A stretch of 35,755 bases of DNA from Fulvivirga imtechensis AK7 (GTDB lineage Bacteria > Bacteroidota > Bacteroidia > Cytophagales > Cyclobacteriaceae). A program made the translations under genes and the position numbers. Position 1 is the stretch's first letter; each line of letters opens with the position of its first letter. Shown here one piece after another: positions 673 through 35,081 of this stretch. The notes beneath the pieces are model-generated. The model did not search any database. It saw nothing but the letters and a program-made list of their open reading frames with translations, and was not told the DNA's origin. The stretch lies in the NCBI RefSeq assembly GCF_000331535.1, contig NZ_AMZN01000082.1:1-35755 (forward strand). The letters run 5' to 3'.

Positions 673-688
673 TGAGATATTATATTCG

Positions 689-732
689 GCAAAACCAAAA
701 GTACATTTTAGCAAAACCAAAAGTACATTTTT
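689..732 (+). repeat. Left-end tandem repeats L1 and L2, likely transposase binding sites
   Basis: Two 22-bp units stand head to tail at 689-710 and 711-732. Both begin with GCAAAACCAAAAGTACATTT and differ only in the last base. Inverted or diverged copies of the same motif lie at 34814-34835, 34945-34966 and 35050-35071. Terminal multi-copy sites of this kind are what MuA-family transposases bind; that role here is inferred. Confidence 0.85.
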
Positions 733-751
733 ACAGCGAGCCGCGCAATGC

Positions 752-780
752 AAAAAGGACGCCCAACAGAGCGCCCTTTA
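752..780 (-). terminator. Intrinsic terminator of the leftward late operon
   Basis: On the minus strand a 9-bp stem (AAAGGGCGC with GCGTCCTTT, one G-T pair) with an 8-nt loop is followed by a T run. It lies 27 bp after the stop of the last leftward gene and before the left transposase sites, so it would stop late transcription before it enters the host gene. Confidence 0.8.
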
Positions 781-806
781 AACCACGTTTAACCACCACT
801 TAAACA

Positions 807-1391
807 CTACTTAAAGTAAGTAGCCAACACAGCTGCCGGAGTGTCTGACAACAGGTAAGGCATGGCCTTAACGGTCCAGTTGGCAGTACCTTCCATTCTC
901 CTTGAGCCGCCTAGCTCCTCGTCACTAGCAGGCGCCACATCAAAGTCCATAGGGATCACAGCCAGCTGGTCATCCAGTGCGCCAAACATCTTAAAGTCTT
1001 CGAACACAAAGGCCATGCTCCAATCGTTGCTGAAATTAACAGTGTTCCAAAAGGCAAGATTGGCATCTACACCATAGTGTTTAAATGGTATGGAGTAAGT
1101 AAACGAACTCGTTTTCTCTCGCTTGAACGCCATACCAGGCTTCTTGTTTGCCGTAGGTCTGGCCCAGTTACCTGAGAACCCTTTCAGGATCTTAACGTCT
1201 CCAGCGGCGACGGCTGCATCTATGGTGACGGCATCGATCAGCGTTTGTACGTCCACACCCTTTTTAATCATCATGGCACCAACAATCAAACTGCCCTCCT
1301 CAAGGCAGTCTCCCTCTGGTGTGAAGGTACCCAAGGCCGCACCGCAGGGATCGTATGCAGTGAGCGCTAAATTCATGTGAAAAAGTTTCAT
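807..1391 (-). CDS. Virion structural protein, possibly the major tail tube protein
   Basis: This 194-residue protein has no signal peptide or membrane segment and is rich in beta-type sequence with Trp, Phe and Gly. It is the last gene of the leftward late operon and is followed by the terminator at 752-780. The size, the late position and the alternating hydrophobic pattern (for instance SNDWSMAFVFEDFKMFGAL) suit a tail tube or similar virion protein. No other gene in the window is a better tube candidate, but the position after the fibre and esterase genes is unusual, since tube genes normally precede the tail chaperones. The start ATG is the one giving a 30-bp gap from the upstream gene. 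Function is a guess; the gene itself is firm. Confidence 0.8.
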   Translation of the reverse strand: MKLFHMNLALTAYDPCGAALGTFTPEGDCLEEGSLIVGAMMIKKGVDVQTLIDAVTIDAAVAAGDVKILKGFSGNWARPTANKKPGMAFKREKTSSFTYSIPFKHYGVDANLAFWNTVNFSNDWSMAFVFEDFKMFGALDDQLAVIPMDFDVAPASDEELGGSRRMEGTANWTVKAMPYLLSDTPAAVLATYFK

Positions 1392-1421
1392 AATAGATCT
1401 ATTGTTAAAAGTTAAAAAAAA

Positions 1422-2189
1422 TTACTGCATTATGTTGTTCGCGTAAAAAATGGCTAAGTTCTCTCCCAGCTTATTGTTATACTCTTGCGTAAGATGAAGA
1501 GAATCATAATAAGCCGCTGGTGTTGATATAGGATATTCATCCGTATCGGATAAGTCCTCTGCAAGATGTACATGTGAGTAGGTTTCAACAAGACCATCTA
1601 CGCCATTTGTAATTATTTCACCAACGCCTATCCATTGCGGGTCGCTTGCGTATGATCCGCCTGACATCCTTCCTCTTTGCACAATCATCACGGGCACGTC
1701 AGGAAAGTCCACAGCTAATCTGTCTATTAGATCAAACGCATCACTTTCTATAGTTGCTAGTGAAGTATCTCCCCGAGCATCATTAATCCCTAGGATCATG
1801 ATTATGACATCTATACTCCGGCCTAAATAAGTCTCAAATGATTCAGCCTCGGCAACCATAGGCGCATACAAATTACCTGATTGGCTCCAGTTGTTATTAT
1901 CAAGATATGGGCTAAATTCGCTGCCTCCCTCAGCGTTCTCACTTACATATGTTTGCTTACCGGTTAACTCAAACAATTTTTCTGCAAATGAAGGCATATA
2001 TCCACCTGTATTTGCATCCTGCAAATCATCTGTTATCTGCGTCAATACTCCAGATCTAAACTCATAAAGAGTCCCGGCCTGTGCGGATGTAGTACCGTTT
2101 GACGTGCCGTTGGCAATACTGTCTCCTATTATTAGTACTGCTAGAGGCGGTATATTACCCGCTATGCTATGTATGAAATTTAACATCAT
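1422..2189 (-). CDS. SGNH/GDSL-family hydrolase, tail-associated esterase
   Basis: The 255-residue protein carries the SGNH blocks: block I IIGDS with Ser24 as nucleophile, a Gly in block II near 88-89, block III GIND with Asn136, and block V DSLH with Asp229 and His232. Such enzymes deacetylate or de-esterify polysaccharides. In a tail operon, right after a fibre-like gene, it probably trims surface glycan during adsorption. I chose the ATG at 2189, which overlaps the upstream stop as ATGA. An open frame extends further upstream (to 2261), but only by reading into the preceding gene. There is no signal peptide, as expected for a virion-borne enzyme. Confidence 0.85.
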   Translation of the reverse strand: MMLNFIHSIAGNIPPLAVLIIGDSIANGTSNGTTSAQAGTLYEFRSGVLTQITDDLQDANTGGYMPSFAEKLFELTGKQTYVSENAEGGSEFSPYLDNNNWSQSGNLYAPMVAEAESFETYLGRSIDVIIMILGINDARGDTSLATIESDAFDLIDRLAVDFPDVPVMIVQRGRMSGGSYASDPQWIGVGEIITNGVDGLVETYSHVHLAEDLSDTDEYPISTPAAYYDSLHLTQEYNNKLGENLAIFYANNIMQ

Positions 2190-4057
2190 AGCGTTGCAAG
2201 ATCGGTTAAGTTTTGTGCCGTATAAGCTACGGGCTGTAACGTAAAGTGTCTCATATAACAATCGAGAGGTGATGTCCCGGTAGATGTTTGAGCGCCAATC
2301 ACCAACTTAGCGTTTGAGGAATTAAAGTTCGCCATTGTTAAACCACTTATGTCTCCGTCCAATGAGCCAGAAAGCGTCTGAACAACCTCATCTATCAAGA
2401 TTTCAATATTTGAACCACTGTTCACCCGAACAGCTAGTTGAACAAAATCAGACATTGCAACATCTGCAAAAACAGAATTAGCGGTCTGTGCGAACACTGT
2501 TGTGGAATCACATCCATAAGCAACCGTTATTTTCCCGTCAGTCCTTATATCTATCCAGAATCGGCTGACAGTTGTATTTGCTATGTAACACACATATCCC
2601 ACTGCTGAGGGTTGTCCGTCATTAAGCTTAATCTGAACCGATATGCTGAACGTGTTTTGAAATAAAGATGATAGTGCGGTACTCTGAGAACTGAGGTTTT
2701 CTACTCCAAAGTCAAGACATTCCTTACTGTTTTGAATGCTTCTTGGAACGCCCGAGTTGCTTCCATTGAAGTCATAAGATGTTGATGTCAGCTTATCGGT
2801 TGATACTGTAGCCGGATCAGAATTAGTACCCTGTACATCCATTGGCAGGTGGATGAAATCAGGGCTAATACTAGACACATCAAAAGCATCACTTACATTA
2901 TTTGTGACCGCCTGACTAGTTGCTTCAAGGCCGTTACTAGATGAATCCACAATGTTATTACTAGCAGCTACCTCTAAAGTGAATACGTCTGCCTCAACTA
3001 CTGACGCATCGAGCGTGAAAGTCAATGTGTTTGTTCCAGATCCTGAGACACTCTGCAATGTCTTCGCAGTTCCGGTAGTAAAATCTAAAGAAAGGCCTGT
3101 TAAATCAGTTATTGTCACCGGCTCATTAAAGACTACAACAAGTGAAGTGTCCGCACTGTCCTCAACAGTCGCACTTTGTATAGTGGGGGCAGTAAGATCA
3201 GAAGCGGCAGTATTCTTAATAGAGTAGAATACCTTGTTAAGCTGCTGATTATAATAGCCAAAAAAGTGGACCTTCTTTGACACATCGGGCACAGTTGAAT
3301 CGAGTGAAACAAAATCCGAACTAAAAGTAACAGCATCAGGCGTGTTTAGAATCAAAAATATGGTCTTTCCGTTAATATTACCTGAAGCCGCTAATGTAAA
3401 ATTCCAGGTTCCACCATTTTGCTGAAGGCCTATTTTGTTGCTGTTGAATGTCAGTTGATTTGTAGGAGTAAAAGTTGGTGCAGACTTTTTATCAAGTGTC
3501 AAAGGAGTTACAAAACTGATGTCGTTTATGGCTAAATCTACTTCTGACTGAGTTGCCTGAATAAACCCTATTATCTCCCAATCCCCGGCAGCATACTCAG
3601 CCACCAGGTCAGTCGTCTCATATGGCCGTGTAGCCACCGTGAGCCTCAGCAGGCACTTAGGATAACCCGCCTTAGGCACTCCGGTAACATATACCTCCTC
3701 CTGTGTGTATACGCCAGCTGCATGGGGCACCAAACCGCTTTCATTCTTAGACACCTCAGTCCAGTTTGCGTCCTCTGCCGGTTGGTTGCCTTGGTTATTG
3801 TCAATCTTTGATTTCCAAAGCTTATTGTTAAACTCAGCATAAGCAGGATTACCGGACCCGATGCTGGTTGCCGGAGTATCGTAAACCTCTTCTGAGTCCC
3901 AGGCAAGTGACACCTGCTGCCCTGAGCCTGTGAGGTTGCTTTTACGGATCTTATAGTCTTTTCCCTCGCTGCTCTTGCGGATCACAAGAAAGTCCTCGGG
4001 TGAAGCTTCTAGCAGCTCCTTCAGACGTGGAAAGTTGGTGGTTCTAAACTGTGTCAT
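2186..4057 (-). CDS. Tail fibre / receptor-binding protein with Ig-like and LamG-like domains
   Basis: This is a 623-residue modular protein. Residues 1-50 form a short N-terminal attachment-type region. Around 55-105 lies a carbohydrate-binding-module-like stretch (AEFNNKLWKSKIDNNQGN). Residues about 289-388 form an Ig-like domain of the SwmB/Big_5 type (APTIQSATVEDS, VVVFNEPV). Residues about 400-620 look like a concanavalin/LamG fold, with repeated beta-strand patterns and RFWIDIRTDGKITVAYG. These are common surface-binding modules of fibre proteins. It sits between a large tail-tip gene and the SGNH esterase and overlaps both neighbours by 4 bp, suggesting translational coupling. Domain calls come from pattern recognition only. 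Confidence 0.8.
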   Translation of the reverse strand: MTQFRTTNFPRLKELLEASPEDFLVIRKSSEGKDYKIRKSNLTGSGQQVSLAWDSEEVYDTPATSIGSGNPAYAEFNNKLWKSKIDNNQGNQPAEDANWTEVSKNESGLVPHAAGVYTQEEVYVTGVPKAGYPKCLLRLTVATRPYETTDLVAEYAAGDWEIIGFIQATQSEVDLAINDISFVTPLTLDKKSAPTFTPTNQLTFNSNKIGLQQNGGTWNFTLAASGNINGKTIFLILNTPDAVTFSSDFVSLDSTVPDVSKKVHFFGYYNQQLNKVFYSIKNTAASDLTAPTIQSATVEDSADTSLVVVFNEPVTITDLTGLSLDFTTGTAKTLQSVSGSGTNTLTFTLDASVVEADVFTLEVAASNNIVDSSSNGLEATSQAVTNNVSDAFDVSSISPDFIHLPMDVQGTNSDPATVSTDKLTSTSYDFNGSNSGVPRSIQNSKECLDFGVENLSSQSTALSSLFQNTFSISVQIKLNDGQPSAVGYVCYIANTTVSRFWIDIRTDGKITVAYGCDSTTVFAQTANSVFADVAMSDFVQLAVRVNSGSNIEILIDEVVQTLSGSLDGDISGLTMANFNSSNAKLVIGAQTSTGTSPLDCYMRHFTLQPVAYTAQNLTDLATL

Positions 4058-6153
4058 GCCGGGTTAACTTCAAATAGATCATTATTCAACTCTAGTATAT
4101 TTACAGGGGTATCTACATCGCCCTGGTCATCGGTATTGTCCGCAATAAGATCCACCTGCCTCAGCTTGGCTCTAGCGTTGGCAAATGCATCGTTTTGGAA
4201 GTATTCTATCTCTACATCCTCCTCAGTCTGATACTCTACATCATTCACTAGTATGTAATCATGTCCGAATGCAAATGCCAGCTTTTCAGCCAGATAAGGT
4301 GGTACCTCAAACACTGACAACTGAGGGTTCCTTGTCACATTCTCAGCCAGCTTGATAGCCCTATTACGGCTGTCCTCTGTCACTGTCCTTTCACCTCCAG
4401 GTGTTGGCCATTTCAGATCTCCTTCTACACGTATCAGGTTAATGATCCCGGTTGTGTAGTCCATTTTATAGGCGTTCTCAAAATTTTTGTACTTGATAAG
4501 TACTGTATCCGGCTGTGTGGCCTTCAGCTCCAGTGGCTCGCTCTCAGCTCTGTATTCCCCAAACTGATCATCACTACCCTCCAGCACCATGTAGTACTTA
4601 TCATTATTGTAGTTGCCCCAGTTGATGATCTGCTCCCACACCTCATAGGGTTCGATGTCATAGATTGCTGATACTGTACCACTCTGCACGTTTGAGTCTG
4701 TAGGGAAAGTAATTATTATAGCCTCAAAGCCTTCTGCGTGTCGGTCCCCAGGGCGTATATCCTCTATTAAATAATCTCCATCAAGACCCGCCTGAGCAAA
4801 ACCCTCAAGTGTAATAAGCTGCCCTACCTGTGCGAACTCAGGCAGACCGTCACTGAAATATATCTGACATACATTACCACCAAAGCCAGCGGTAATATAT
4901 CCGGTAACAGACTCCTCATAGTCAGTGAAAGCAGTCTTTTTAACGGGTGTTAAAGTCTCTATTAAAGTATCTTCAAGGTCGTAGATCTTGAGCGTGTTGC
5001 TCTCGTAGTTTGACCGGAACTGCAAATACGTGATATCACTCTGCTGTAGCTTCTGGTAGTAGCACTCCTGGAGCACTCCGGGAAATTTCATATTCCTAAA
5101 CAGGGTGTTATCAAAGTTTTGCAGCTCTGTATTGTCCAGGACAAACCGGTGACTCTGAACTATAGGTATATCAATAGTAGCCGTTCTAAACCTCTTAATC
5201 GCGGCTGATATTTCGTCAGTACAATCCTGAGAGTCTTTGACCTTTATTTGGTATGTACCCGGTGGAAGGTTAAAAAACTCAGAGCTGGACTGATAGTTAT
5301 CTCCGTCATCAACGCTATATTGAATCGGTCCGTTGCTACTTGAGGCTACAACTTTCAGGTAGCCATCATTCGCAAAAATCGTTTGCTCATGCAATACGAT
5401 TACATTCTCAATTTTAACGTCACACGTAACCACACTTACCAGTACATTCCGCACATCTCCGCATGTGGTCTGAGACTTATACCGCACTGATATCTGATAT
5501 ATATCTGCTGACAGATTTTCCCATTTAGGACTATCCTGCCAGGCTTCAAGGTTAAGCCTATACTCCACCTGCTTTACAGCATTGATAAGCGTCTCTATTG
5601 TAATACTACCATCGTTACCCCCAGCGTCAGGGTCAATTTTGACAGTTCCTATTTTCAGGTTACATACTACCTCATTATAGTTTATTTGAAACTTACGAGA
5701 ATCTATGCAGGTTCTGCCATCTTGCATAGTATTCTTTATATACGCAAAGTACTGGCCAGGCAGAAGCCCAGTGAATATGTTTGATTGTTGATAGTTAACA
5801 CCTCCGATAGAGAAGGTTTTTATGCCTGACCCTGTGCCATTCAGTGTGGCCGTACCATCCGCTGTATTTTCGCTAGATGCATTTGTTGTACCTACAGAAT
5901 TCAAAGCCACTTCACATGGAGTTTCTACAGGATCCTCAAAACTTGTAACAAATGCATATGGATGTATATTCTGGGGTTTTACCAGATATGTTATATTACC
6001 TTCTTTATGCTGATAAAGAACATTTGGTTGACCAGAAGTACAAATATCCGATGTAAGGTTCCCTCCAATGATCGTTTTTGTTGATGGATCATAAGAAACC
6101 TCAGCTATATACCCATGCGATGTATTACAATATGATATGAATTGTACTGCCAT
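4054..6153 (-). CDS. Large tail-tip/baseplate-like protein with SprB-type repeats
   Basis: The protein has 699 residues and no signal peptide. The middle third contains two or three related Ig-like segments (for example DPDAGGNDGSITI and FANDGYLKVVASSSNGPIQY) with Cys, Asp and Gly spacing like the SprB repeats of Bacteroidota surface proteins. The C-terminal half has an extended baseplate-like part ending in an acidic tail. Four-base overlaps with both neighbours place it inside a translationally coupled tail block. A structural role at the tail tip or as a hub-associated adhesin is inferred from position and domain style; the gene call itself is solid. Confidence 0.75.
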   Translation of the reverse strand: MAVQFISYCNTSHGYIAEVSYDPSTKTIIGGNLTSDICTSGQPNVLYQHKEGNITYLVKPQNIHPYAFVTSFEDPVETPCEVALNSVGTTNASSENTADGTATLNGTGSGIKTFSIGGVNYQQSNIFTGLLPGQYFAYIKNTMQDGRTCIDSRKFQINYNEVVCNLKIGTVKIDPDAGGNDGSITIETLINAVKQVEYRLNLEAWQDSPKWENLSADIYQISVRYKSQTTCGDVRNVLVSVVTCDVKIENVIVLHEQTIFANDGYLKVVASSSNGPIQYSVDDGDNYQSSSEFFNLPPGTYQIKVKDSQDCTDEISAAIKRFRTATIDIPIVQSHRFVLDNTELQNFDNTLFRNMKFPGVLQECYYQKLQQSDITYLQFRSNYESNTLKIYDLEDTLIETLTPVKKTAFTDYEESVTGYITAGFGGNVCQIYFSDGLPEFAQVGQLITLEGFAQAGLDGDYLIEDIRPGDRHAEGFEAIIITFPTDSNVQSGTVSAIYDIEPYEVWEQIINWGNYNNDKYYMVLEGSDDQFGEYRAESEPLELKATQPDTVLIKYKNFENAYKMDYTTGIINLIRVEGDLKWPTPGGERTVTEDSRNRAIKLAENVTRNPQLSVFEVPPYLAEKLAFAFGHDYILVNDVEYQTEEDVEIEYFQNDAFANARAKLRQVDLIADNTDDQGDVDTPVNILELNNDLFEVNPA

Positions 6154-8222
6154 TACAAATTAGCTCTTAATAGTTGAAAACTTACCTCTCTGGTCTTCTG
6201 ATCAGGCACGGCCTCCATCAGATAGCCCTTCTTATGATTTTTGTTCGTAGCGCTAAACTCCACATACCTGGTAGGATACATATTCAATGTTCTCCAGTCC
6301 TCGATTGTTAGCTTATGCCGAAATATGTACCTCTCCGGTATCCAAATTTGTTTGCCTAATTGTGCCTTAGTGATCACACCTCCCTCGCTTACCTCCTCCG
6401 TCTCACTGTTCAGCCTGCTCACCATATCAGTATTACCCTCACCAAAGTTGATCTTAATACCATCTTCAGTCTTATATAATGATCCTGCTATCACCGGCCC
6501 GTTTCTGATTATGTTCCGGGCTATTGAAAGCTTTGCATTGTACACACTTCCCGGATCTAGCACACCATTCAACACAGCAAAGTCCTCATCCTTATCAGTC
6601 ACAAAGCCACCGCCACTACGCCTGAGTTGAATTATGAAATTTTCATTATCATTTATATTGTCTTTCGCATCTCCCTCTTCATATTGCTCCCTTCTGGTAA
6701 ACTCAAGCGTGTAGCCGCTTGCTATGTAGGGACTTTCCAATGAAAGCCTATTTTTGATCTGTGTTATCGGCAGCGTCAGCTCTTTTCTGGAGTTGAATTC
6801 ATCCAGGTTGTTTTGTTCCTCATTTGCCCATCTTTTGTATCCTGCTAAAATCTCATTCCAATACAGCGTAGCATCTACCTCTTTTTTAATGTCATTAACA
6901 TAGTTGAGCGTGATGCTCTTTTCATTCACGTAGAAGTTACTCACTTGCTCCACCACTATTATCTCCCTTGTATCCTCCTTTTCTATACCCACGCCTATTC
7001 CGTCAACAGCATTGTATGTTTCAAACATATCCTTAAAACTTGCGTGCATCGGGTTGTCTGAAAAAGGGAACCCTCTAAGGAGCTTTCCATCTGTTTGACC
7101 CCGGAGGCTGCCAGCTCCGTCAGCAAAATACGATCTTGGCTCAGAGTCAGTACGACCAAAATAAGAACTTTTAAAGCTATCTTCCTGATCTGTGATGCTA
7201 TGACACACCCGCGCCCATATCTCATGAAGTAGCATTACCGGGCAGTCTGTTGCCGGGTAAGTTGTGTCTTCGCTCATCTCAAGTATACTATCTGTGTGGT
7301 AAGTAAAAGTTGGTAGACCTGGCGGATTTCCAGAATCAGGATCAGGCCCTACAATAAAAATAATCTCCTCTTCCGCCTCTATTACTATCGTTTCATCAAA
7401 ATCAACCGTGTATGTGCTCTGGCCATTGGCTTGCAACAACTGCTCGGTTTGCCATGAGCCTCCCACAGGGCCATGTAGGAGCCGGATGTAAACGCCCTCA
7501 GCCGGTATACTAGTTGAAACAGTAACACTCCCAGTCACCCGTATTGTCCTGCTAGTTATTCCTATCGGAAACTCTTCACCTTCAGTTGAAAGAATTGGGG
7601 TAAATCTATCGGTTGTAAAGGGTTCTTGAGCACCTGTAAGAAAATTCATTTTCTCTTTAAATGGAGGCGTGTGCTCTACGTCAAACTCATTATCTGGCAC
7701 ATGCACATTTTCATCATTACCATCATCCACAAAACCAAACCTGGCTTTCATCCTTATGGTCTTACTGTGCATTTGTATTGTCTGCACTTCACTATTAAAA
7801 GGTGTAATAGTCTTACCACCTTGTGTTTTCTTACTTTGCAGGTCCACCTTTACGTCCATCCTATTCTTAAACTTTTGTAAAAACCCTGTGTTCTCCACAT
7901 TGCAAGTGGCGTATAGTTTGCTTATTTCCAGCGTAGTAAGATTTAAGCGACCTCTGTAATCTTCTGAAAATTTCTTTGTTGTTGAGTCAAGCACTTTCAC
8001 TATAAGTATTAGCTCCGTTTCTATACCGTACTTTTCATAGAAATAGTGAATTATAGCCTTACCCTTTTTAATGAACTGTAACTTTGGCGTATACTCAAAA
8101 AACACACCGTGCAGTTTCTTATCACGCTTAATAGACTTTCCAAGACCGTCCCATCCTACCGGGTCCTCTATTCTGACCTTTGTCTTTAAGTCCTTATGGT
8201 ACAGGTAATAGTTATACATCAA
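6153..8222 (-). CDS. Tail-tip / baseplate hub-like protein
   Basis: This 689-residue protein is encoded immediately after the tape measure gene, where long-tailed phages keep the distal tail and hub proteins. The N-terminus (MMYNYYLYHKDL) and a long mixed alpha/beta body show no transmembrane segments. One segment (about 185-330) is rich in Thr, Pro and Gly and may be an inserted beta domain. No catalytic motif is evident. The start overlaps the tape-measure stop by 4 bp and the end abuts the next gene. I infer a distal tail or hub role from gene order; I do not recognise a named family. Confidence 0.75.
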   Translation of the reverse strand: MMYNYYLYHKDLKTKVRIEDPVGWDGLGKSIKRDKKLHGVFFEYTPKLQFIKKGKAIIHYFYEKYGIETELILIVKVLDSTTKKFSEDYRGRLNLTTLEISKLYATCNVENTGFLQKFKNRMDVKVDLQSKKTQGGKTITPFNSEVQTIQMHSKTIRMKARFGFVDDGNDENVHVPDNEFDVEHTPPFKEKMNFLTGAQEPFTTDRFTPILSTEGEEFPIGITSRTIRVTGSVTVSTSIPAEGVYIRLLHGPVGGSWQTEQLLQANGQSTYTVDFDETIVIEAEEEIIFIVGPDPDSGNPPGLPTFTYHTDSILEMSEDTTYPATDCPVMLLHEIWARVCHSITDQEDSFKSSYFGRTDSEPRSYFADGAGSLRGQTDGKLLRGFPFSDNPMHASFKDMFETYNAVDGIGVGIEKEDTREIIVVEQVSNFYVNEKSITLNYVNDIKKEVDATLYWNEILAGYKRWANEEQNNLDEFNSRKELTLPITQIKNRLSLESPYIASGYTLEFTRREQYEEGDAKDNINDNENFIIQLRRSGGGFVTDKDEDFAVLNGVLDPGSVYNAKLSIARNIIRNGPVIAGSLYKTEDGIKINFGEGNTDMVSRLNSETEEVSEGGVITKAQLGKQIWIPERYIFRHKLTIEDWRTLNMYPTRYVEFSATNKNHKKGYLMEAVPDQKTREVSFQLLRANL

Positions 8223-10603
8223 GCACTATATCTTTTTGATACATAATTAGTCCACATTTGTCCCTTCTGTATACCTACATTAAAGCCATTCTCATCTACA
8301 TTAATGTGGCTCACCGGTTTGCCTTCAATAGCCCTTTTTATATCCCTCAGCTCTCTGGTGATATCATCACCCTTACGACCTCCTTTTGTAAGCATGATGT
8401 CACCCCTCAGGTGCGTAGGTATGTGCTTATCAACCAGTTCACGTAGCTGTAGCTCGCTAAAGCTCTTATCCTCGATCATCGGTTTGAGTAGCCAACCGAA
8501 CCTCTTACTTGCCTTGGCGTGCACAACACTCTCACGCTTGCTGAGGTGTGCGGGTATGCTGTCACTTGTCTCTGTGCCTGGTCCCTGTAGATCATAGACA
8601 CCGTCTTTATACTTAGGTATTGATTGACTTTTTACAGCCGCCGCTTGAAGAGCACCCATAGCAATAGCAAAAGCACTGAAGGGCAAACCGAAAGTTGTAG
8701 GACTTTTCGCGATAGCTGCCACCACAGCCTCTGCCGTATTGATTGCAATGCTAAAAAGTGCAAGTGTCTGTTCTCTACGCGCCTGCCTTGCTTTGATCGC
8801 TCGTTCTTTTTCATCATACTCCTCATTGATACGCTCTTTTGCAGCTTTATTATCACCAGCTTTCTTAAGCTCTTCACGCCTCTCCTCTTCAAGTCTCTCT
8901 AGCCTGGCGTTAGATCTGTTCCGTTCAATCTCCGCATATGTTTCAGCTATCTGATCACTCAGCATAAAGGAGGCTCTTATTATCTCCTCTCTTTCTCTTC
9001 TAGCCCTTTCCTCCGCTTCTCTTTGCTTTCTCAGCCTCTCTTGGTTAGCCTTGTACATGTCATCCATTGTGTTCTCAAAGTCCTTCAGGATGTCATCATT
9101 GATCTTTTCAAGGTCAGGCAGGAAGTCCTCACCAAAATGCTTTTTAATAGCATCAGTGAACTTGCGCGCCTCAGCAGCAGGGTCTCTCTTTTCAAGTAGA
9201 TCCGGCACTATATCTTTCTGGATCCTGCCAAGCTCCATCAGTCTCTTGATCTCCGCGTCAAGGAGTTGTATCCTGAGGTTAGCCTTAGAAAGCTGGTCCT
9301 CAGTGATTGCATTATCTCTCTCTGCTTTTGCCTTCGCTAATTCAGCATTAAGTCTTGCCAGTATAGAAGTTTGTTCCTCAACATCATCAGACCCTTTATT
9401 GAACTCCTTCATATAGGCTTTATAGCTTTCCTCAGCGATTTTTAGCAGCGCTGTAGAGTGCTCCAGTTCAAAGTCATAATCACTGAGTATGATCTCAACC
9501 TGCTTCAGTGAGAACCCGAATTTTTCAGCGGCAGCTTTCAGGTCATCAGTACTTTTTGCTTGCTTTGACGCGGCATAAAATCCCTCAAGATCGGCCAGCT
9601 CTTTTCTATAGCTTTGTATGTGCTTTACTACTTCATTGATAGCGTTTACCTGATCTTCCTTAGTAAGCTTTACAAATGCTTCAATATTTTTTTGAATCCT
9701 TTTGTTTGCGTAATCCTCAAAAGGATTCTTATTAGCTACCTCTATGAACTGAGTAATAGCCATAGTCAGCTCTGTAAACTGCTCAATGAAGTATTCAATC
9801 ACACCTCCCTTATTCTCTCCAAGAGCAGCAAAGAAGCGATCAATTGCATCAGCCGCATTTGACATTTTTCCGCCAAGGGTTTCAGATACAACCGCCATAG
9901 ATCCTGCAACACCTTCAAGCTCACCCAAACTGAGTATGTAGTTTCTGATAGACTCCTCTGTGAAATCAACCTGAGTTTTAACGCCCTTAAATGCAAACTC
10001 TACCTGATCGCCTGACTTCTTAGCTCTAATACCAAACTCTTTCAGTCTCTCAAATTCTCCAGTTGTAGCATCAAGCAGAGCCTCTACTAACTGATCCATG
10101 TCTTTGCCCATTGCACTGGTCAGGTCACCCATTTTTGTAAGCTCTTCGTTTGTTGGCACAAAGCCCCTGTTTGCCAGCTTAATGAAAGCGTCTGTGATCT
10201 GACTTACCTGAAAGGGGGTCTTTGCTGCAAACAACAGAATTCGATCGAATGCAGCGGCACCGGCTGAGTCGGATCCAAGGGTATTTGCGAGTATTGCACG
10301 GAACTTTTGAAATTGTGCAGTAATTTCGATTGTAGTGTTAAGGAACTGCTTTGCTTTGTCTATACTCCAGAGAGCTAACGCGCCTTTGGCAGCCTTACCC
10401 AGCAGACCGCTCATGTCTCCTAACTTCTTATTGATCCCGTTCAAATGTCTATCAGCGCGGCCTGTGTCACGGATTTGCTTTTCAAGCTGCCCCATCTCCT
10501 TATCGGTCAGGTCGGCAGCCTTACCGGCAGCACGGAGCTTTGCTATCAACTGGTCCAGCTCCTTGTCTTCCACCTTTGCACGTACGGGAAATTCAGCAGC
10601 CAT
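8219..10603 (-). CDS. Tail tape measure protein
   Basis: The 794-residue protein has the canonical tape-measure N-terminal domain (about 75-260), with FDRILLFAAKTPFQVSQITD followed by GFVPTNEELTKMGDLTSAMG. Long coiled-coil stretches rich in Glu, Lys and Arg follow (about 390-620), then a hydrophobic Ala-rich segment near 640-665 (SIAINTAEAVVAAIA) that could enter the host membrane during DNA ejection. Tape measure proteins set tail length and line the tube. The gene follows the two overlapping chaperone frames directly, the standard order in long-tailed phages. The modest length predicts a fairly short tail. Confidence 0.92.
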   Translation of the reverse strand: MAAEFPVRAKVEDKELDQLIAKLRAAGKAADLTDKEMGQLEKQIRDTGRADRHLNGINKKLGDMSGLLGKAAKGALALWSIDKAKQFLNTTIEITAQFQKFRAILANTLGSDSAGAAAFDRILLFAAKTPFQVSQITDAFIKLANRGFVPTNEELTKMGDLTSAMGKDMDQLVEALLDATTGEFERLKEFGIRAKKSGDQVEFAFKGVKTQVDFTEESIRNYILSLGELEGVAGSMAVVSETLGGKMSNAADAIDRFFAALGENKGGVIEYFIEQFTELTMAITQFIEVANKNPFEDYANKRIQKNIEAFVKLTKEDQVNAINEVVKHIQSYRKELADLEGFYAASKQAKSTDDLKAAAEKFGFSLKQVEIILSDYDFELEHSTALLKIAEESYKAYMKEFNKGSDDVEEQTSILARLNAELAKAKAERDNAITEDQLSKANLRIQLLDAEIKRLMELGRIQKDIVPDLLEKRDPAAEARKFTDAIKKHFGEDFLPDLEKINDDILKDFENTMDDMYKANQERLRKQREAEERARREREEIIRASFMLSDQIAETYAEIERNRSNARLERLEEERREELKKAGDNKAAKERINEEYDEKERAIKARQARREQTLALFSIAINTAEAVVAAIAKSPTTFGLPFSAFAIAMGALQAAAVKSQSIPKYKDGVYDLQGPGTETSDSIPAHLSKRESVVHAKASKRFGWLLKPMIEDKSFSELQLRELVDKHIPTHLRGDIMLTKGGRKGDDITRELRDIKRAIEGKPVSHINVDENGFNVGIQKGQMWTNYVSKRYSA

Positions 10604-10606
10604 TGA

Positions 10607-11343: not shown

Positions 11344-11348
11344 ACCGG

Positions 11349-12059: not shown

Positions 12060-12073
12060 GTCTTAAATGCTCT

Positions 12074-13247: not shown

Positions 13248-13248
13248 A

Positions 13249-14328: not shown

Positions 14329-14370
14329 TGTTTGTCTCTTGTTTTAGTTGAAAAAATGAGTTACCAGACA

Positions 14371-21975: not shown

Positions 21976-22006
21976 ACGTAAGTATTTTGGGCATATTATA
22001 CGATTT

Positions 22007-22033: not shown

Positions 22034-22034
22034 G

Positions 22035-24866: not shown

Positions 24867-27049
24867 TAAAGAACAATATAGTTTGGCTAAGTACGCGCGA
24901 GCTGGTGGAGCAGGTGCCTGCTGAGTTTCAGGCAGCACTGGAGGAGACCATCAACAAAGGCAAGTACCGCAACCGTAACAACGGCCTGGAGTCATGGCAT
25001 CATGAGAAGGTCAACGGTGAGGTATTGATCAACTACAACACCATCCCTGAGCCTACCCTGGCTAAGTATGATCTGCCTGATCCCGCTAAACTGATGAAGC
25101 GCAATATCGAGCAGCTTTTCACGACACCCGCCAAAGCATATGATTACTTCCTGGCTAACCCGGATGTATACGAAGTAGCCAGGGAGCTGAGCGAGACGGC
25201 AGGCTGGCTGCTATACATGGCGTCAGTGTCCAGGAGCCATGCGGCCGCTATGGGCTACAGCTCACTTGATCATCTCTATGAGGATGCTAAGGATCTGATG
25301 GCCGCAAAAGACTGGAGCAAATGGAAGTGCAACAGCATACAAGTATTTAAACGCAAATTAAAGCCCTTCAATAAACTATTTAAAAAGCCTTTAAACGGTA
25401 ACTACTCCGATCAGGATCTATACACCGCCCTGGACTCACTCATCAGCAAGAAGTACGGAAACAACAACAGCCAGAAGCTAGGCGAAGAGCAGGAGGCGCT
25501 ATTAGTACAGATCTACAGCGAGCCTAATGCTAAACCAAGCCTGGAGCAGACTTATCAAATGTACCTACGAACAGCTAATGAAATGGTACAGGCATACACT
25601 GCAAGTAATGGACAACATGGATGGAGTCATAAGGCTATTGTGTCATACAGCACGGTTAAACACTTCTTAATGAGTAAAGAAGTACAGCAGATAGTGTACG
25701 CTAATAGGCATGGAAAGCAAGCTTATCGTAGTAAATACGAAATGGTTACTCACAGAGAGATTGCCAGTTTTGCAAATGCAATGTGGGTGATGGATGGAAC
25801 CCCGGTTCATCGCTACTACTACGACCCTGAAAGCAAAGGCAACTATGCCAGGCTAAACGTATTCGTAATAATAGACGCTCATAGCTGGTGTGTGCTCGGC
25901 TTTTTCGTCAGCTATAAGGAAACTTCAAAAGCCGTTAAGGGCGCTTTAAGATCAGCTTGTAACCTATCGGGTTACGTGCCCCATCAGATCCAGTTTGACA
26001 ACTCATCAGCTATTAAGAGTTTCGATGCTCAGCAGTGCCTTGCGGCTCTTTCTCCAAGCCTCACTCCGGCCGCTGTGGGCAACTCACGTTCTAAGGTAAT
26101 AGAGCCTTGGTTCAAGCACTTCAACGAGCAGGTACTAAAATTTAGAACCGGGTTCACCGGCAGCCCGGTTATGGGGTCAAAGATTGACAGCAAGCCCAAC
26201 CCTGAATACATCGCACACCTGGTTAAAACAAAGCAGATCGTACCAATCAATAAGGCTATTAAGGAGATACACGAAGACTTCACCATCTGGAACTATCACG
26301 TCATGAAGAAGTATGGCAAGTCTCCACTAGACCGGTACAAAGCCAGCATTGAGTCATCTATCGACAAGCAAAGACCATACACACCTCAATTAGAGCTTGA
26401 AGCCTTCTTCGAGATGCCTGGAGACCTTAAAACGGTGAAGCTTGTGGAGCAGGGTAAGTCTGTAAACCGAAAGATATTCATCCCTCAGCCTTACGAATAT
26501 ACCACCAAGGGCATAATGCCTACCATTAACAATGAAAAGATGATATTTTCGGTTGATAGTCCTGAATTTAACAGCCGGTACCTGGGCGAAAAATTCAACA
26601 TCAAGTATGATCCCGCTGCACCTGAGCGTGTCTACCTATACAAAGACAATGATCCGGTAAGACTGAATGGCGAGCATGTAGTAGCCAGCAAACCGGAAAG
26701 ATTCCACCAGGCCCTTGTAGACCGCACTGAGGGCGAGGGAAGACGCCTACACGACCACCTAAAGACCAAGGATAAGCAGAAAGAACTGGCAGAAAACAGG
26801 TTCACCAGGTACGTGGATCTAACTATCCAGAATGGCACCTACACAAAGGCCGTTACGGAAAACGCTTTTGATAAAGAAGTGCTCAATGCCGCCAGGGCTC
26901 ATATGCTTGAACAAATAGTCAACGGAGATGATTTCAGGCTGGATCAACCGCATGATTCAGAGCACCAAACAAAAGACCTGAGCAGGTTCCTTTACAGCAA
27001 CACACCAAATGCGAAGCCAGGCAATAACAAAAACCTTAAACGATTTTGA
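24860..27049 (+). CDS. DDE transposase, MuA type
   Basis: The 729-residue protein has an N-terminal DNA-binding part (about 1-280), then an rve-type catalytic core with Asp312 (WVMDGTP), Asp380 (QFDNSSA) and Glu415 (KVIEPWF), giving D-x67-D-x34-E. The C-terminal part is a beta barrel followed by a charged tail that would contact MuB. It pairs the ends at 689-732 and 34814-35071 and joins them to target DNA, for both integration and replication. I chose the ATG at 24860 overlapping the upstream stop; a TTG 15 bp upstream is possible. Catalytic residues are intact. Confidence 0.93.
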   Translation: MVVKNNIVWLSTRELVEQVPAEFQAALEETINKGKYRNRNNGLESWHHEKVNGEVLINYNTIPEPTLAKYDLPDPAKLMKRNIEQLFTTPAKAYDYFLANPDVYEVARELSETAGWLLYMASVSRSHAAAMGYSSLDHLYEDAKDLMAAKDWSKWKCNSIQVFKRKLKPFNKLFKKPLNGNYSDQDLYTALDSLISKKYGNNNSQKLGEEQEALLVQIYSEPNAKPSLEQTYQMYLRTANEMVQAYTASNGQHGWSHKAIVSYSTVKHFLMSKEVQQIVYANRHGKQAYRSKYEMVTHREIASFANAMWVMDGTPVHRYYYDPESKGNYARLNVFVIIDAHSWCVLGFFVSYKETSKAVKGALRSACNLSGYVPHQIQFDNSSAIKSFDAQQCLAALSPSLTPAAVGNSRSKVIEPWFKHFNEQVLKFRTGFTGSPVMGSKIDSKPNPEYIAHLVKTKQIVPINKAIKEIHEDFTIWNYHVMKKYGKSPLDRYKASIESSIDKQRPYTPQLELEAFFEMPGDLKTVKLVEQGKSVNRKIFIPQPYEYTTKGIMPTINNEKMIFSVDSPEFNSRYLGEKFNIKYDPAAPERVYLYKDNDPVRLNGEHVVASKPERFHQALVDRTEGEGRRLHDHLKTKDKQKELAENRFTRYVDLTIQNGTYTKAVTENAFDKEVLNAARAHMLEQIVNGDDFRLDQPHDSEHQTKDLSRFLYSNTPNAKPGNNKNLKRF

Positions 27050-27896: not shown

Positions 27897-28823
27897 ATGC
27901 AATTACAAGACAAACAAAAAATCACAGAGGCCCTGATCAACTGGATAGCCTCATCAGAAAGCAGGTCTGCAAACATCCTGGCCGATCAGTCAGGCATAGC
28001 CGCGGCTTATATTTCTCGCATCCGAAATGGTGAGTACACCATGAAAACAGGTACCGGTACCAGCCCCATACCAGACAAGGTATTCAACACCCTTGCCGAC
28101 TTCCTAGGCGTGCGATTTGAAACAGAGCTGCACTGGGACACTGCCAACTACCAGCTAGTGCAGGCAGTATGCAAAAGCGCCCAGGACAAAAAACAGCGCA
28201 TACTCCTGGAGGCTGATACCGGCCTGGGCAAAACCTACGCCCTGGAGCGTTACGCCCTGGAGAATGACAGAGTGCTGTACATTAAGGTTACCCGCACCAT
28301 GAACGCAAAGGACATGCTGGAGGAGATTTGCAAGAAGCTTGGCATTAAGGACCAGCTCAGAGGCAACCGCGCGCGTATGCTGGCTATACAGAAGAAGGTT
28401 ACCAGCGTAACCGGCTACCTGCTCATCATTGATGAAGCGGAGTACCTTAAGAATACCCTCTATGATCTGGTAAAAGAGATTGCAGACTTCACCGATCGTA
28501 AGTGTGGCATGATACTCAGCGGTATGGAGCTTTCAGCCAAGATCAACACTATGGCCGATCGTAACCGTCCCGGTTTCCCACAGCTCAGGCGCAGGTTTTT
28601 CCCGAACAGGGTAGAGCTTAAGGCTATAGAAAAAGAGGAGATCAAAGAGATCTGCAAGGCCTCAGGCATTACAGACACCACAGCCATCAACGTGCTGGCG
28701 CAGTACATCTTTGATTACGACATGCTCAATCAGTACGTGCAGGTAATACTTGAGAACATTCGCAAGTGCGGTGAGCAGCTCAACGGTAAGGATATCATTT
28801 CACTGTTTAACCTTGATTACTAA
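27897..28823 (+). CDS. MuB-type AAA+ ATPase, transposition target protein
   Basis: The 308-residue protein joins an N-terminal helix-turn-helix (about 24-48; NILADQSGIAAAYISRIRNG) to an AAA+ domain with Walker A (ADTGLGKT, Lys112) and Walker B (YLLIIDEAE, about 174-182), followed by a C-terminal helical part. This is the layout of Mu B, which binds target DNA as an ATP-dependent filament, activates the transposase and gives target immunity. It is preceded by a weak hairpin. The downstream coiled-coil gene starts 4 bp after its stop. Confidence 0.9.
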   Translation: MQLQDKQKITEALINWIASSESRSANILADQSGIAAAYISRIRNGEYTMKTGTGTSPIPDKVFNTLADFLGVRFETELHWDTANYQLVQAVCKSAQDKKQRILLEADTGLGKTYALERYALENDRVLYIKVTRTMNAKDMLEEICKKLGIKDQLRGNRARMLAIQKKVTSVTGYLLIIDEAEYLKNTLYDLVKEIADFTDRKCGMILSGMELSAKINTMADRNRPGFPQLRRRFFPNRVELKAIEKEEIKEICKASGITDTTAINVLAQYIFDYDMLNQYVQVILENIRKCGEQLNGKDIISLFNLDY

Positions 28824-30046: not shown

Positions 30047-30344
30047 AATCACTAAAGCAATGTGCATGAGGATCTTTTCCACTGCCTCCCTGGACGAACA
30101 AAGGGCACTGATCAGCATACTGGTAGAGATGAAAGACGCCACAGTGAAGCACCCCAATTGGCCTGATGATGTAGTGCACCGCGCAGCCATAGTAACAGAG
30201 AAAGCGGGGGAGCTGATCAGAGCAGCACTCAACCATCATTATGAAGGCGGTGAACTGGCAGAGATGAATAAGGAATCCATACAAACCGGGGCCACAGCGC
30301 TCAGGTTCATTGTCAACTCAAAGAAAGGAGGCAGCAATGGCTAA
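30036..30344 (+). CDS. MazG-like / nucleotide pyrophosphohydrolase-type protein
   Basis: The 102-residue protein contains HPNWPDDVVHRAAIVTEKAG followed by ELIRAALNHHYEGG and TGATALRFI, the pattern of short phage proteins with a MazG-like helical core (EEAGEL-type acidic motif, here TEKAGELIRA). Such proteins are thought to act on nucleotides or alarmones. The start at 30036 is set by a strong Shine-Dalgarno sequence, GAAAGGAGG at 30021-30029, 6 bp upstream; an in-frame start 33 bp earlier lacks one. The acidic ligand set looks reduced, so activity is uncertain. Confidence 0.75.
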   Translation: MQIKITKAMCMRIFSTASLDEQRALISILVEMKDATVKHPNWPDDVVHRAAIVTEKAGELIRAALNHHYEGGELAEMNKESIQTGATALRFIVNSKKGGSNG

Positions 30345-30966
30345 GAACTACGGCAAAAACGACATCATGAGCTGGAAGTTCAACGAGCTTGAGCTACCTC
30401 AGGAATGGGCGGAGCACTTAGGCACTGTCTGTGAAAACTTCCGAATGCTTATAGAAGGTCCAAGCGGCCACGGCAAAACCGAGTACGTCATGCGTCTGGC
30501 TAAGATGCTTTGCAAGCACTACGGTAAAGTAAATTTTAACTCCGTAGAGCAGGGTAAATCATCCACCTTTCAGATCGCCTACAAGCGCAACAAGATGTAT
30601 GAGATCCGTGCCGGTAAGTTCATACTGGCAGAGAAGTCGCAGCGCACCTTTGAGCCTTACTTCAAGAAGGTGCAGAAGCCTAACAGTGGCCGCGTGCTGA
30701 TCATAGATAGCCTGGACTACATGAAGCTCACATTTGATCAGTTTCAGCAGCTTCATGAGCGTTTCCCGAAGAAGTGCATAATAATAGTATGCTGGAATGA
30801 TCCGATGGACGCAGCCGCTAAGAAAATCAAGTACTGCTGTGATATCAAAGTGCAGGTAAAAGACTTCCGTGCACAGATCCGCAGCAGGTTCGGAGGCAAT
30901 AAGCCTTTTGTCATATGGGACCAGCGCAGCCGGTCCAATGGTCAACTACAAATGTCACTATCATGA
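30337..30966 (+). CDS. P-loop ATPase, AAA/RecA-like (possibly recombination)
   Basis: The 209-residue protein has a clear Walker A (IEGPSGHGKTEYV) near 46-58 and a Walker B (RVLIIDSLDYMK) in the middle, with little beyond one ATPase core. It differs from the MuB-type protein in lacking an N-terminal DNA-binding domain. Single-core ATPases of about this size in phages include Sak4-type annealing proteins and DnaC-like loaders; I cannot decide between them. The ATG at 30337 follows a Shine-Dalgarno GAAAGGAGG at 30323-30331. Its stop overlaps the next start (ATGA). Confidence 0.8.
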   Translation: MAKNYGKNDIMSWKFNELELPQEWAEHLGTVCENFRMLIEGPSGHGKTEYVMRLAKMLCKHYGKVNFNSVEQGKSSTFQIAYKRNKMYEIRAGKFILAEKSQRTFEPYFKKVQKPNSGRVLIIDSLDYMKLTFDQFQQLHERFPKKCIIIVCWNDPMDAAAKKIKYCCDIKVQVKDFRAQIRSRFGGNKPFVIWDQRSRSNGQLQMSLS

Positions 30967-31422: not shown

Positions 31423-32073
31423 ATGAGCACAGTAGAATTAGACAAATTAACAGACGATCAGCTGGAACAACTCCTCCAGGAGCGCCAAAAGAAAAAGCAA
31501 CGCGAAGAGCTTGCCAGACGCAAGAAGTACGAGCAGGACCGTGAGGAACTGATTGACACCCTGATCATGGCTGCGCAGGGTCTACAGGTACAATTACAGC
31601 AGTTCAAAAAAGCAGCTTTTGAAAATATGGATCAGTTTTCTGAACGCATGAAAGAGTACGGTGAAGTCAACGCCAACAGCAAAGGTGGCTTTAGTATAGA
31701 GAATGCAGCTGGTACCCTTAAGATCCGCTACAGCAGCCAGACAAAGAAGGGCTTTGATGAGCGTGCAGACATGGCAGAGCAGAAGCTCAAGAGCTTTCTG
31801 GAGCGGTTTGTAAAGGTCCGCAATAAAGAGACCTACAAGCTTGTAACGCAGCTCCTGGAGCGCACCAACAGCGGTGAGTTTGATGATAAGCTCATTATGA
31901 AGTTGTGGAACATGGAAAACGACTTTGATGATGCCGACTGGAAGGATGCCATCAGGTTATTCAAGGAGTCCTACAATCCAAAGGCCACCACCAAGTACAT
32001 GAACTTCTACAAGCGTGATGATCATGGTAACTGGAAGCTTATTAACCTCAATTTCGCAAGTGTAAATATTTAG
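31423..32073 (+). CDS. DUF3164-like phage protein
   Basis: The 216-residue protein starts with a charged coiled coil (about 10-60), then a beta-type segment (AAGTLKIRYSSQTKKGFDER), then helices (KLIMKLWNMENDFDDADWKD) and a terminal KYMNFYKRDDHGNWKLINLN. This order, and the closing pattern of a Tyr-rich strand, Asp-x-x-Gly-x-Trp and a short hydrophobic end, are those of DUF3164, a family found in the early region of Mu-like phages. Function unknown. It begins 1 bp after the preceding stop. Confidence 0.78.
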   Translation: MSTVELDKLTDDQLEQLLQERQKKKQREELARRKKYEQDREELIDTLIMAAQGLQVQLQQFKKAAFENMDQFSERMKEYGEVNANSKGGFSIENAAGTLKIRYSSQTKKGFDERADMAEQKLKSFLERFVKVRNKETYKLVTQLLERTNSGEFDDKLIMKLWNMENDFDDADWKDAIRLFKESYNPKATTKYMNFYKRDDHGNWKLINLNFASVNI

Positions 32074-32918: not shown

Positions 32919-33132
32919 TCCCATTGCTGTACGTGATCGAGAGATCCGTGATGTTATCAACCATTTGAAAAAGCGTCATAATAAAGATTACATCAGTGAT
33001 TTCATTTTTAGAAACTACTGGGTGATCAACTACTATAACATACTCAAGCGTGTAGATTCCAGACCAGTAGATCCTGAGCTGGCCAGCATAGCATACCGTA
33101 AAGTAATGAATGATGAGTATTTCAATCTATAA
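32905..33132 (+). CDS. Small early/middle protein, unknown
   Basis: The 75-residue protein (from the ATG at 32905) is helical with many Arg, Asp and Tyr (RDREIRDVINHLKKRHNKDY). An in-frame upstream TTG would add 11 residues but lies deep in the previous gene. Size and position next to the gp16-like gene would suit a Mor/C-type activator partner, though no DNA-binding motif can be shown. Confidence 0.6.
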   Translation: MPENNPIAVRDREIRDVINHLKKRHNKDYISDFIFRNYWVINYYNILKRVDSRPVDPELASIAYRKVMNDEYFNL

Positions 33133-33718
33133 AGTCACCACCAGGAAGCAAAGCACCCTGAAAGGTGCAGCATACCTACTATTTAAAGGTGATGTTTTAA
33201 GTGCCGTTAACTGGGACTTTAACAGGCCTTTAACAGACCATGAAAAGAATGTTATCAGGTCCAAGTTTCCATTCTCCCAGGAGGACCTCAAGGGCTTTGG
33301 AGAGATCTTTGCCGTGAAGGAGATGGAAGCCAAGACGGCCCACGACAAACTAAAGCTATTCTGCATGTATTTCAAAGCCAGGAGAGGAAGCACATACACC
33401 GCCAAGAAGCAAGAGAAAGCCAACATCAAGGAAGTTGTAGTAACAGAAGGCCTCTTAAACACCTATTTCTCAAATGACTCATTTCCGCTCAGCTACGCCA
33501 AGAGCATTAACGACTACATACGCCACTACAACTACATTCGCGACATCAACCGCAATGGTATCCCCGAGAAAAGCAAATTCCCCAACGAGTATGATGCACG
33601 CTTTGAAAAGCAACTTTCACCGGAAGAGCTTTCACAATATTGGGCACATTTACGTAACTTAGGCTGGAGACAGAACAGTCGTAAGGTATGGGTGGCTCCC
33701 GGCAAACTAGATATTTAA
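33110..33718 (+). CDS. Last early-operon protein, unknown
   Basis: The 202-residue protein is basic, mostly helical, with YLLFKGDVLSAVNWDFNRPL and a C-terminal SQYWAHLRNLGWRQNSRKVW. The latter, a helix ending in an aromatic basic motif, could bind DNA. Two adjacent ATG codons (33110 and 33113) are equally good starts. It overlaps the preceding gene by 23 bp and ends the tightly packed operon; a 64-bp gap follows. It could be the late-transcription activator, which is otherwise not identified here. Confidence 0.7.
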   Translation: MMSISIYKVTTRKQSTLKGAAYLLFKGDVLSAVNWDFNRPLTDHEKNVIRSKFPFSQEDLKGFGEIFAVKEMEAKTAHDKLKLFCMYFKARRGSTYTAKKQEKANIKEVVVTEGLLNTYFSNDSFPLSYAKSINDYIRHYNYIRDINRNGIPEKSKFPNEYDARFEKQLSPEELSQYWAHLRNLGWRQNSRKVWVAPGKLDI

Positions 33719-34284: not shown

Positions 34285-34770
34285 ATGAAAGCAACATTTA
34301 CATTACTATTTATTTTCCCATTCATTTTAAGTGCTCAGCCGAGCTTAAACACTGAGAGTGGTCTCTACACCTACCAGGAAGTCGTAGAAGCTCCAGGCAG
34401 CGCGCATGAGCTTTACAGTAAAGCCCGTGAGTGGTTTGTCAACAGCTACAGAGACGCTAACGCTGTCCTACAGCTGGAAGATCCTGATCAGTCAAAGCTG
34501 ATAGGCAAAGGAGTTATCAACGTGGTCCACACTATGGAAGGCAGAGACGTGTTCCATACCGTCACTATAGAAGCCAAGGAAGGCCGTTACAGGTACACTA
34601 TAGACCACTTTGTCATCGACTGGATAACTGACGGCAGACACACCACGTTTGAGGAGTACGAAGGCAAGCCAGGCAGCAAAAAGATGTTCACCAGAGTAGA
34701 TGAGAAAGTGCAAAATCTTATCACCACCTTAAAGGCTCAAATGTCCACCACCACGAGCAGCGACTGGTAA
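34285..34770 (+). CDS. Secreted DUF4468-like protein, moron at the right end
   Basis: The 161-residue protein has a signal peptide (about 1-17, LLFIFPFILSAQ) and the DUF4468 pattern: SAHELYSKAREWFVNSYRDA followed by LIGKGVINVV and a beta-sheet region. The family is common in Bacteroidota and is periplasmic or surface exposed, of unknown function. It is the last gene before the right transposase sites, where transposable phages keep lysogenic-conversion genes. It is probably expressed by the lysogen and of use to the host or in exclusion. Family assignment is by eye. Confidence 0.8.
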   Translation: MKATFTLLFIFPFILSAQPSLNTESGLYTYQEVVEAPGSAHELYSKAREWFVNSYRDANAVLQLEDPDQSKLIGKGVINVVHTMEGRDVFHTVTIEAKEGRYRYTIDHFVIDWITDGRHTTFEEYEGKPGSKKMFTRVDEKVQNLITTLKAQMSTTTSSDW

Positions 34771-34813
34771 GAGTTTCATGTCCAGTTTTACACGTCCAGT
34801 TTAAGCCTAAAGG

Positions 34814-34835
34814 ACAAAACGAAAGGTACATTTTT
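34814..34835 (+). repeat. Right-end transposase-site copy R3
   Basis: A 22-bp copy in the same orientation as the left repeats, with three mismatches to L2. It overlaps a terminator-like hairpin. Confidence 0.65.
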
Positions 34836-34851
34836 TAAATGTGCCTTTTTT
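34822..34851 (+). terminator. Intrinsic terminator after the DUF4468-like gene
   Basis: AAAGGTACATTT pairs with AAATGTGCCTTT (one G-T pair) with a 3-nt T loop, followed by a T run. Because A and T tracts flank it on both sides it may work in both directions. Its left arm is part of the R3 site. Confidence 0.7.
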
Positions 34852-34944
34852 AATGCCTAAAATTGTATATATGTAGAGTATGGGCGGTAATTAAATGGTA
34901 TTGCTTTAATGGATGTGTCCGGTTATATTTACCTGAATGCGTAT

Positions 34945-34966
34945 AAAAATGTACTTTTCGTTTTGC
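34945..34966 (-). repeat. Right-end transposase-site copy R2
   Basis: This inverted 22-bp copy differs from L2 at a single base, the closest match between the two ends. Confidence 0.85.
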
Positions 34967-35049
34967 ACCCTATTAGCTGTATCACCGGGCTAAAATCCCC
35001 GCAAATTTTGAAGATTCCCGCAAATTCCCGCTAATTTTTATTAAACTAT

Positions 35050-35071
35050 TAAAATGTACTGTTTGTTTTAC
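35050..35071 (-). repeat. Right-end outermost transposase-site copy R1
   Basis: This inverted copy has three mismatches to L1 and lies 4 bp inside the proposed right end. Left and right outermost copies are placed symmetrically: each is followed outward by four more bases and then TATA. Confidence 0.75.
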
Positions 35072-35081
35072 CCCCTATAAT

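Follow-up and report, generated by a model that had tools for sequence, protein, structure and literature searches.

The window, that is, the whole stretch of DNA analysed here, is one entire contig (G000:C82, 35,755 bp) of a draft genome in 225 contigs. It carries a complete-looking Mu-like prophage of 34,399 bp, the ends of which were placed at 681 and 35079 from the sequence and by comparison with phage records and with a second prophage, that of Fulvivirga marina (G008). The first-pass annotation had set the limits at 673 and 35081, at most 8 bp away. The element is flanked by two copies of ATAT (677-680 and 35080-35083) and separates two host genes, the stop codon of the first facing it on the 16-672 side and the start codon of the second on the 35082-35755 side. 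The translation of the right contig edge, YDPALGRFNSVD, is presumably an RHS-repeat core; the contig break is therefore probably located in repeats, and the insertion site looks like an RHS-associated locus. A search of 15 genomes of the genus for the empty insertion site matched only the window's own two flanks. The MuA gene is present once in the window's genome, and one viral contig, IMGVR_UViG_2531839228_000002, has the same length as the window and a MuA that is 100% identical.

The directions of the genes had been read correctly at the outset, as the open reading frames and family matches confirm. The left arm (807-15819, minus strand) is comprised of the tail genes (807-10603), including the tape measure (8219-10603), the lysis amidase (12074-12568, family matches), the major capsid protein (13249-14328, PHROG 267) and the head maturation protease (14758-15819, PHROGs). 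A gap at 15820-15992 separates it from a second late arm of opposite direction, and a divergent promoter is predicted there from the gene directions. This second arm (15993-21750, plus strand) was assigned by PHROG and family matches and contains the terminase genes terS (15993-16424) and terL (16424-17947), a head-tail adaptor of the Mu gp36 family (17954-18376), the portal (18470-19681; Pfam Portal_Mu, E 3.5e-65), the Mu F-like head protein MuF (19678-20553), a neck gene (20783-21253) and a tail-completion-like gene (21265-21750), the last two in a position conserved in relatives.

The next plus-strand gene (22072-23295) encodes a TPR protein, in which Pfam finds no effector domain. It is probably an accessory gene, occupies the same place in F. 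marina (54% identity), and adjoins the repressor gene, with which it is convergent. The repressor-like HTH gene itself (23290-23763, minus strand) has weak PHROG repressor matches and 66% identity to its F. marina counterpart. Beyond it lies the gap of the candidate operators and the predicted divergent promoters (23764-23848), with two palindromes of the AGAAAATTTTCTC type. The early arm starts with a small HTH protein in a Ner-like position (23849-24106, family match) and continues on the plus strand with the MuA-type transposase (24845-27049; PHROG 310, E 3.5e-70; Pfam rve), the MuB-type ATPase (27897-28823; PHROG 296, E 1e-48), a further ATPase (30310-30966, PHROG 6891), a DUF3164 protein (31423-32073, Pfam) and, up to 33718, the last well-conserved early gene (33110-33718), which has no assigned function and is 82% identical in F. 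marina. A DUF4468 gene (34285-34770, plus strand, Pfam) forms the distal end of the arm. The hallmarks of a Mu-like phage, a MuA-type DDE transposase and a MuB-type ATPase, are thus present, as are the Mu-type portal and the F and gp36 head proteins. The Mor/C activators and GemA had no match in Pfam or in PHROGs, with which 30 of the 43 phage ORFs were scanned.

The candidate operator core GAAAATTTTC is confined, in a pattern search, to the gap between the repressor and the early genes, where it occurs in the region of 23776 and 23806. The distance to the left end of the element is about 23.1 kb and that to the right end 11.3 kb, close to the 23 and 11 kb first estimated. A TAnnTTTG box, which is a Bacteroidota promoter element, stands upstream of the TPR gene and of the repressor; the strict two-box form of the Bacteroidota promoter has no match in the window. 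Both outward arms close with a hairpin followed by a T run just inside the ends of the element. The hairpin of the tail arm is terminator-like (745-800, minus strand; fold z -3.25, and -2.59 for its F. marina equivalent), and that of the early arm lies at 34812-34860 (plus strand; z -4.77, and -5.39 in F. marina). Another terminator-like hairpin follows the portal arm (22002-22040, plus strand; z -3.94). None of the three is picked up by a generic promoter and terminator scan, in which terminator-like sites are not in excess (12 found, 13.3 expected).

Gene order in Bacteroidota transposable phages

The standard order is represented by five phages: Hankyphage, Porphyromonas phage 010a, Elizabethkingia TCUEAP3, fF4 and Peternella_1. 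The repressor and early genes occupy the left end and point inward; the neck, portal and terminase genes follow on the other strand, and then the protease, capsid and tail genes run outward. MuA and portal are on opposite strands in all 26 phage records listed as having both (the portal list covers 30 of 226 records, many of them near-identical Hankyphages), and on the same strand in the window. The first-pass annotation had regarded the separation of protease and capsid from portal by a divergent promoter as peculiar. It turned out to be general in the Bacteroidota elements sampled: the two groups are divergent in 85 of 85 rows of the HMM survey with both (84 when the window's copy is left out), and in 13 of 13 elements of a second survey.

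The position of the early genes is another matter. Among the HMM-survey rows that have head, portal and early genes, 31 of 34 show the standard order, and the other three are the window, its IMG/VR copy and the F. marina prophage. A further ten records gave a MuA match in six, five of them newly oriented, and all six are standard, as is a Crocinitomicaceae prophage (L247). The 13 informative elements of the second survey comprise ten standard and three inverted (G540, G608 and G806). Orientation was judged from the strands of HMM matches, MuA/MuB (or else ATPase/DUF3164) being compared with terL/adaptor; since this is a rule about strands only, it does not prove the full order in loci that are cut. 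Early genes could be oriented in 52 terL-bearing loci, of which 47 are standard and 5 inverted; the viral-contig part of this sample leans toward the window's terL because it consists of the 80 best of 531 confirmed matches, and some of the contigs are near-copies. The inverted order is therefore not the common one in Mu-like phages of Bacteroidota, which agrees with the first reading. Genome matches in G148, G232 and G240, and at second places of G307 and G749, stand outside the survey. TerL and portal were absent from the stretches examined in G615, G710, G780, G578 and G654. A MuA scan of genome contigs with a single protein found no relative, and scans of viral contigs for close relatives (with a MuA pair and a terL pair) returned the window's own record only.

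The neck and tail-completion genes are opposite to portal and MuF in nine viral contigs (L103, L115, L121, L141, L142, L143, L145, L148 and L150), which is another small module inversion.

A comparison of gene order, which the first-pass annotation had proposed as a check, was made with the prophage of F. marina 29W222 (contig NZ_JAEUGD010000064.1, 401,347 bp), a member of the same genus. By tblastn, 36 of the 43 phage genes of the window are matched there in the same order, and neither of the two flanking host genes is. The seven genes without a match are an esterase-like gene (1422-2261) and six small ORFs. The draft state of the window's genome and contig edges that are probably in repeats might suggest that standard-order pieces were joined in the wrong direction during assembly. 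However, the order is identical on the 401-kb contig of F. marina and is repeated on a 3.86-Mb contig in G608; misassembly of this kind is largely refuted and retains next to no probability. A composite of two prophages, or an insertion into the TPR gene, was also rejected, as the TPR gene has the same place and the same end point in F. marina and MuA is single in the window's genome.

The nearest described phages share the modules of the window and differ in the direction of one block. Hankyphage p00 and the Porphyromonas gingivalis phages (candidate family Alisviridae) have the Mu-type A, B, portal, F and gp36 proteins, the protease and capsid genes divergent from terminase and portal, and the same two kinds of TA-type end. 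Identity to the window is about 25-37% for the best conserved proteins and up to 54% for the amidase. The modules and the divergent head block are also those of the Winoviridae (Flavobacterium fF4 and Winogradskyella Peternella_1) and of Elizabethkingia TCUEAP3. In the Hankyphage and Porphyromonas phages the repressor and early operon are at the left end and directed inward, and the early block is likewise inward, the standard arrangement, in fF4, Peternella_1 and TCUEAP3; this trait of the Alisviridae and Winoviridae is absent from the window, where the block is inverted.

The first-pass annotation had also held that Mu and its relatives carry the immunity switch at the left end and are transcribed mostly one way. 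Several phages contradict the claim. In the record of Pseudomonas phage B3 the repressor (9990-10400) lies about 10 kb in and, as in the window, the early genes run outward to the nearer end, here the left one; a rearrangement of the B3 left arm is mentioned in the available text of PMC4378225. The full B3 type was nevertheless rejected, for the late half differs: the late genes of B3 all run one way from the switch, whereas portal and terminase of the window are opposed to capsid and tail. The MuA of B3 was missed by the HMM built here, and there is no close sequence relation to the window. BcepMu, according to the accessible part of its description, has two opposed clusters, genes 1-13 with the transposase on the bottom strand and 17-52 on the top (PMC2771037), and thus resembles the window in its internal repressor and outward early operon. 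Leptospira prophages are likewise described, in the portion of the report at hand, with two opposed arms around internal regulatory genes and, in one group, a separated terminase-portal block (PMC8705779). In Burkholderia phage KS10, according to the record and the available text (PMC2628397), the repressor is internal and other genes divide the head module. The KS10 layout was rejected too, since its portal and terminase genes, at the left end, are directed outward and its early, capsid and tail genes run to the right, whereas in the window the early and tail arms are outward and the portal inward. The novelty first suggested for the window was thus upheld in part: the early block is inverted relative to the usual Bacteroidota order, but the split of the head genes is general and an outward early operon is known in B3.

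Transposition ends and the place of the operators

The tail-side end of the prophage (681-735, plus strand) is of the right type. It begins with TATATTCGGC, after which come two site repeats with a spacing of 22 bp. The early-side end (34945-35079, minus strand) is of the left type and begins with TATAGGGGGT, followed, read inward, by two site repeats 105 bp apart; a third, opposite-facing repeat is found about 260 bp inward and is overlapped by the early-arm hairpin. The repeats are putative MuA binding sites. Several site repeats at defined ends together with a short target duplication are found in Mu-like phages broadly, and the window has them too. The ends in F. marina follow the same pattern, with spacings of 22 bp on the tail side and 102 bp for the main pair on the early side, and the 4-bp duplication, ATAT in the window, is TAAT there. 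Bounding repeats of 4 bp, common to the window and the reported Porphyromonas phages, are given for transposable phages of P. gingivalis in the part of the report available (PMC10367356), and repeats of 5 bp for Hankyphage in the available portion of another (PMC6199706).

The repeat spacing at the left end of standard-order phages is 93 bp in Hankyphage, 95 bp in the Porphyromonas phage, 92 bp in Peternella_1 and, as one among several matches, 93 bp in fF4. At the right end it is 23 bp in Hankyphage and 22 bp in the Porphyromonas phage; with the simple pattern used, the 22-bp pair was absent from the right ends of fF4, Peternella_1 and TCUEAP3. Because the same two kinds of end occur in standard-order phages, the left-type end of the window can be said to lie beside the distal early operon, and the tail genes to adjoin the right-type end. 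In the five standard-order records, the edge of the repressor that faces the early genes is about 1.1-1.9 kb from the left end (the Hankyphage repressor being an HMM assignment), whereas the operators of the window are 11.3 kb from the left-type end.

The ends start with 5'-TA in the window (681-690 and 35070-35079) and in L003, L004, L199 and L200. Base 11 is where the first site repeat begins in the majority of the ends examined. The early-side end in F. marina begins with TG; TG/CA termini are usual for Mu and B3-like phages according to the accessible text of PMC8705779.

Probable recurrence of the inverted block

The early block is also inverted in three prophages of one other genus of the same class: G540 (C12; L213, L214, L243), G608 (C1:3396000-3452000; L224, L225, L242) and G806 (C22; L219, L220). 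The G608 prophage lies on a 3.86-Mb contig and belongs to another order within that class. Its early-side end begins with TAGGGGAGGC and has site repeats 95 bp apart, its tail-side end begins with TATAAACGGC and has repeats 24 bp apart, and the flanks share ACGG, a 4-bp duplication. The repressor and the left-type end are about 9 kb apart. A search for the ends of the G540 prophage did not find them, and the G806 prophage is cut at a contig edge. In a 10.8-kb locus, G234:C180 (L188), portal and MuF lead straight into the repressor and then MuA on the same strand; its neck gene is reversed, it has no terminase, and it was counted on the MuA tree only.

Three changes, each forced by starred branches, are required on the terL tree to account for the five inverted loci, which form the groups window and F. 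marina, G540, and G608 and G806. The tree excludes KS10, B3, the window copy L072 and loci without orientable early genes. The MuA tree has six inverted rows, G234 included, and four changes are forced on it, with 17 of its 50 rows of unknown orientation. The sister of the two Fulvivirga prophages is of standard order on both trees: the pair L073/L074 for terL, and L080 (33.6% identity over 676 residues) for MuA. Named genomes among the standard-order relatives include Aequorivita sp. UBA3180 and Crocinitomicaceae SAT99. Both trees were built quickly, with SH-aLRT as the sole measure of support, and several of the MuA branches are long; two gains of the inversion are the minimum that we would defend from them, and a single gain with later losses may account for part of the terL and MuA pattern.

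If the inverted order were old and of single origin, the standard neighbours would be reversions or recombinants. G540 adjoins the Fulvivirga prophages and L073/L074 on the terL tree, where one gain and one loss suffice. Against this, G608 and G806 lie elsewhere on the same tree with starred support and all the inverted groups are apart on the MuA tree, and we consider a single old origin unlikely. A recombinase that flips the early block back and forth would explain why relatives show both orientations, but the longest inverted repeat at the block borders is 10 bp (11 bp with the TPR gene), no longer than chance (mean 9 and maximum 12 in 100 shuffles), and it is 8 bp in F. marina. Moreover, MuA is the sole recombinase among the window proteins scanned, part of the small ORFs lying outside the scan, and the window and F. 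marina are in the same state. An invertible switch was rejected as highly improbable.

That the block came from a different phage and was inserted in reverse orientation, rather than flipped in place, is a more serious possibility, though the odds are against it. The MuA of the window is nearest to L080 and its terL to L073/L074; similarly, the terL of G608 and G806 stands beside Peternella_1 and G749 and their MuA does not. However, mosaicism appears to be common in these phages in either orientation, and the MuA branches are long. The DUF4468 gene closes the early operon in the window as does a DUF4468-like gene (a match below the curated cut-off) in standard-order TCUEAP3, which fits an inversion in place.

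A probable inversion between fixed ends and its meaning

The preferred interpretation, to which we give a probability of about 0.7, is that the window holds a temperate Mu-like prophage of Bacteroidota type in which a block that starts with the accessory gene and repressor and reaches to the end of the early operon has been inverted between fixed transposition ends. The inversion would leave the ends alone, since both end types are kept in the window, F. marina and G608. The data are best read as a derived and recurrent inversion, which combines an early half like that of B3 with the head block of Bacteroidota phages and increases the distance of the operators from the left-type end from about 1-2 kb to 9-11 kb. 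The repressor would hold both divergent promoters in 23764-23848 in the lysogen. Upon induction, the early operon, with MuA, MuB and their helpers, would be transcribed outward and halted at the hairpin inside the left-type end, and MuA would pair the two ends for replicative transposition. The late genes would fire both ways from 15820-15992, the tail arm being halted at the hairpin inside the right-type end. The early half would thus work like that of B3, a state reached separately, and an operator near an end would not be needed.

Two premises are corrected by this analysis: the split of the head genes is found throughout the Bacteroidota elements sampled, and B3 and BcepMu are known examples of an outward early operon. 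What is unusual is that the whole block from repressor to early genes is inverted relative to the usual Bacteroidota order with the end types kept. No report of an inverted early module in Bacteroidota phages was found in the literature searched, the scope of which leaves out most subscription papers, among them Toussaint and Van Gijsegem (2018), reportedly on two organisations, and takes in others in part.

In Mu, the transposition enhancer is embedded in the operator near the left end. We tentatively suggest, at somewhat less than even odds, that inversion of this module is a recurrent and stable alternative state of Mu-like phages in Bacteroidota, with at least two and probably three or four origins and with the ends fixed. 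If this is true, transposition in these phages would not depend on operator DNA close to the left end and in fixed orientation to it, and the end itself, by containing a terminator, would allow outward early transcription to be tolerated. According to the available text of PMC8705779, the order of modules in transposable phages is under strong constraint. This constraint may be tested by comparing related phages in which the operators lie 1-2 kb and 9-11 kb from the same type of end.
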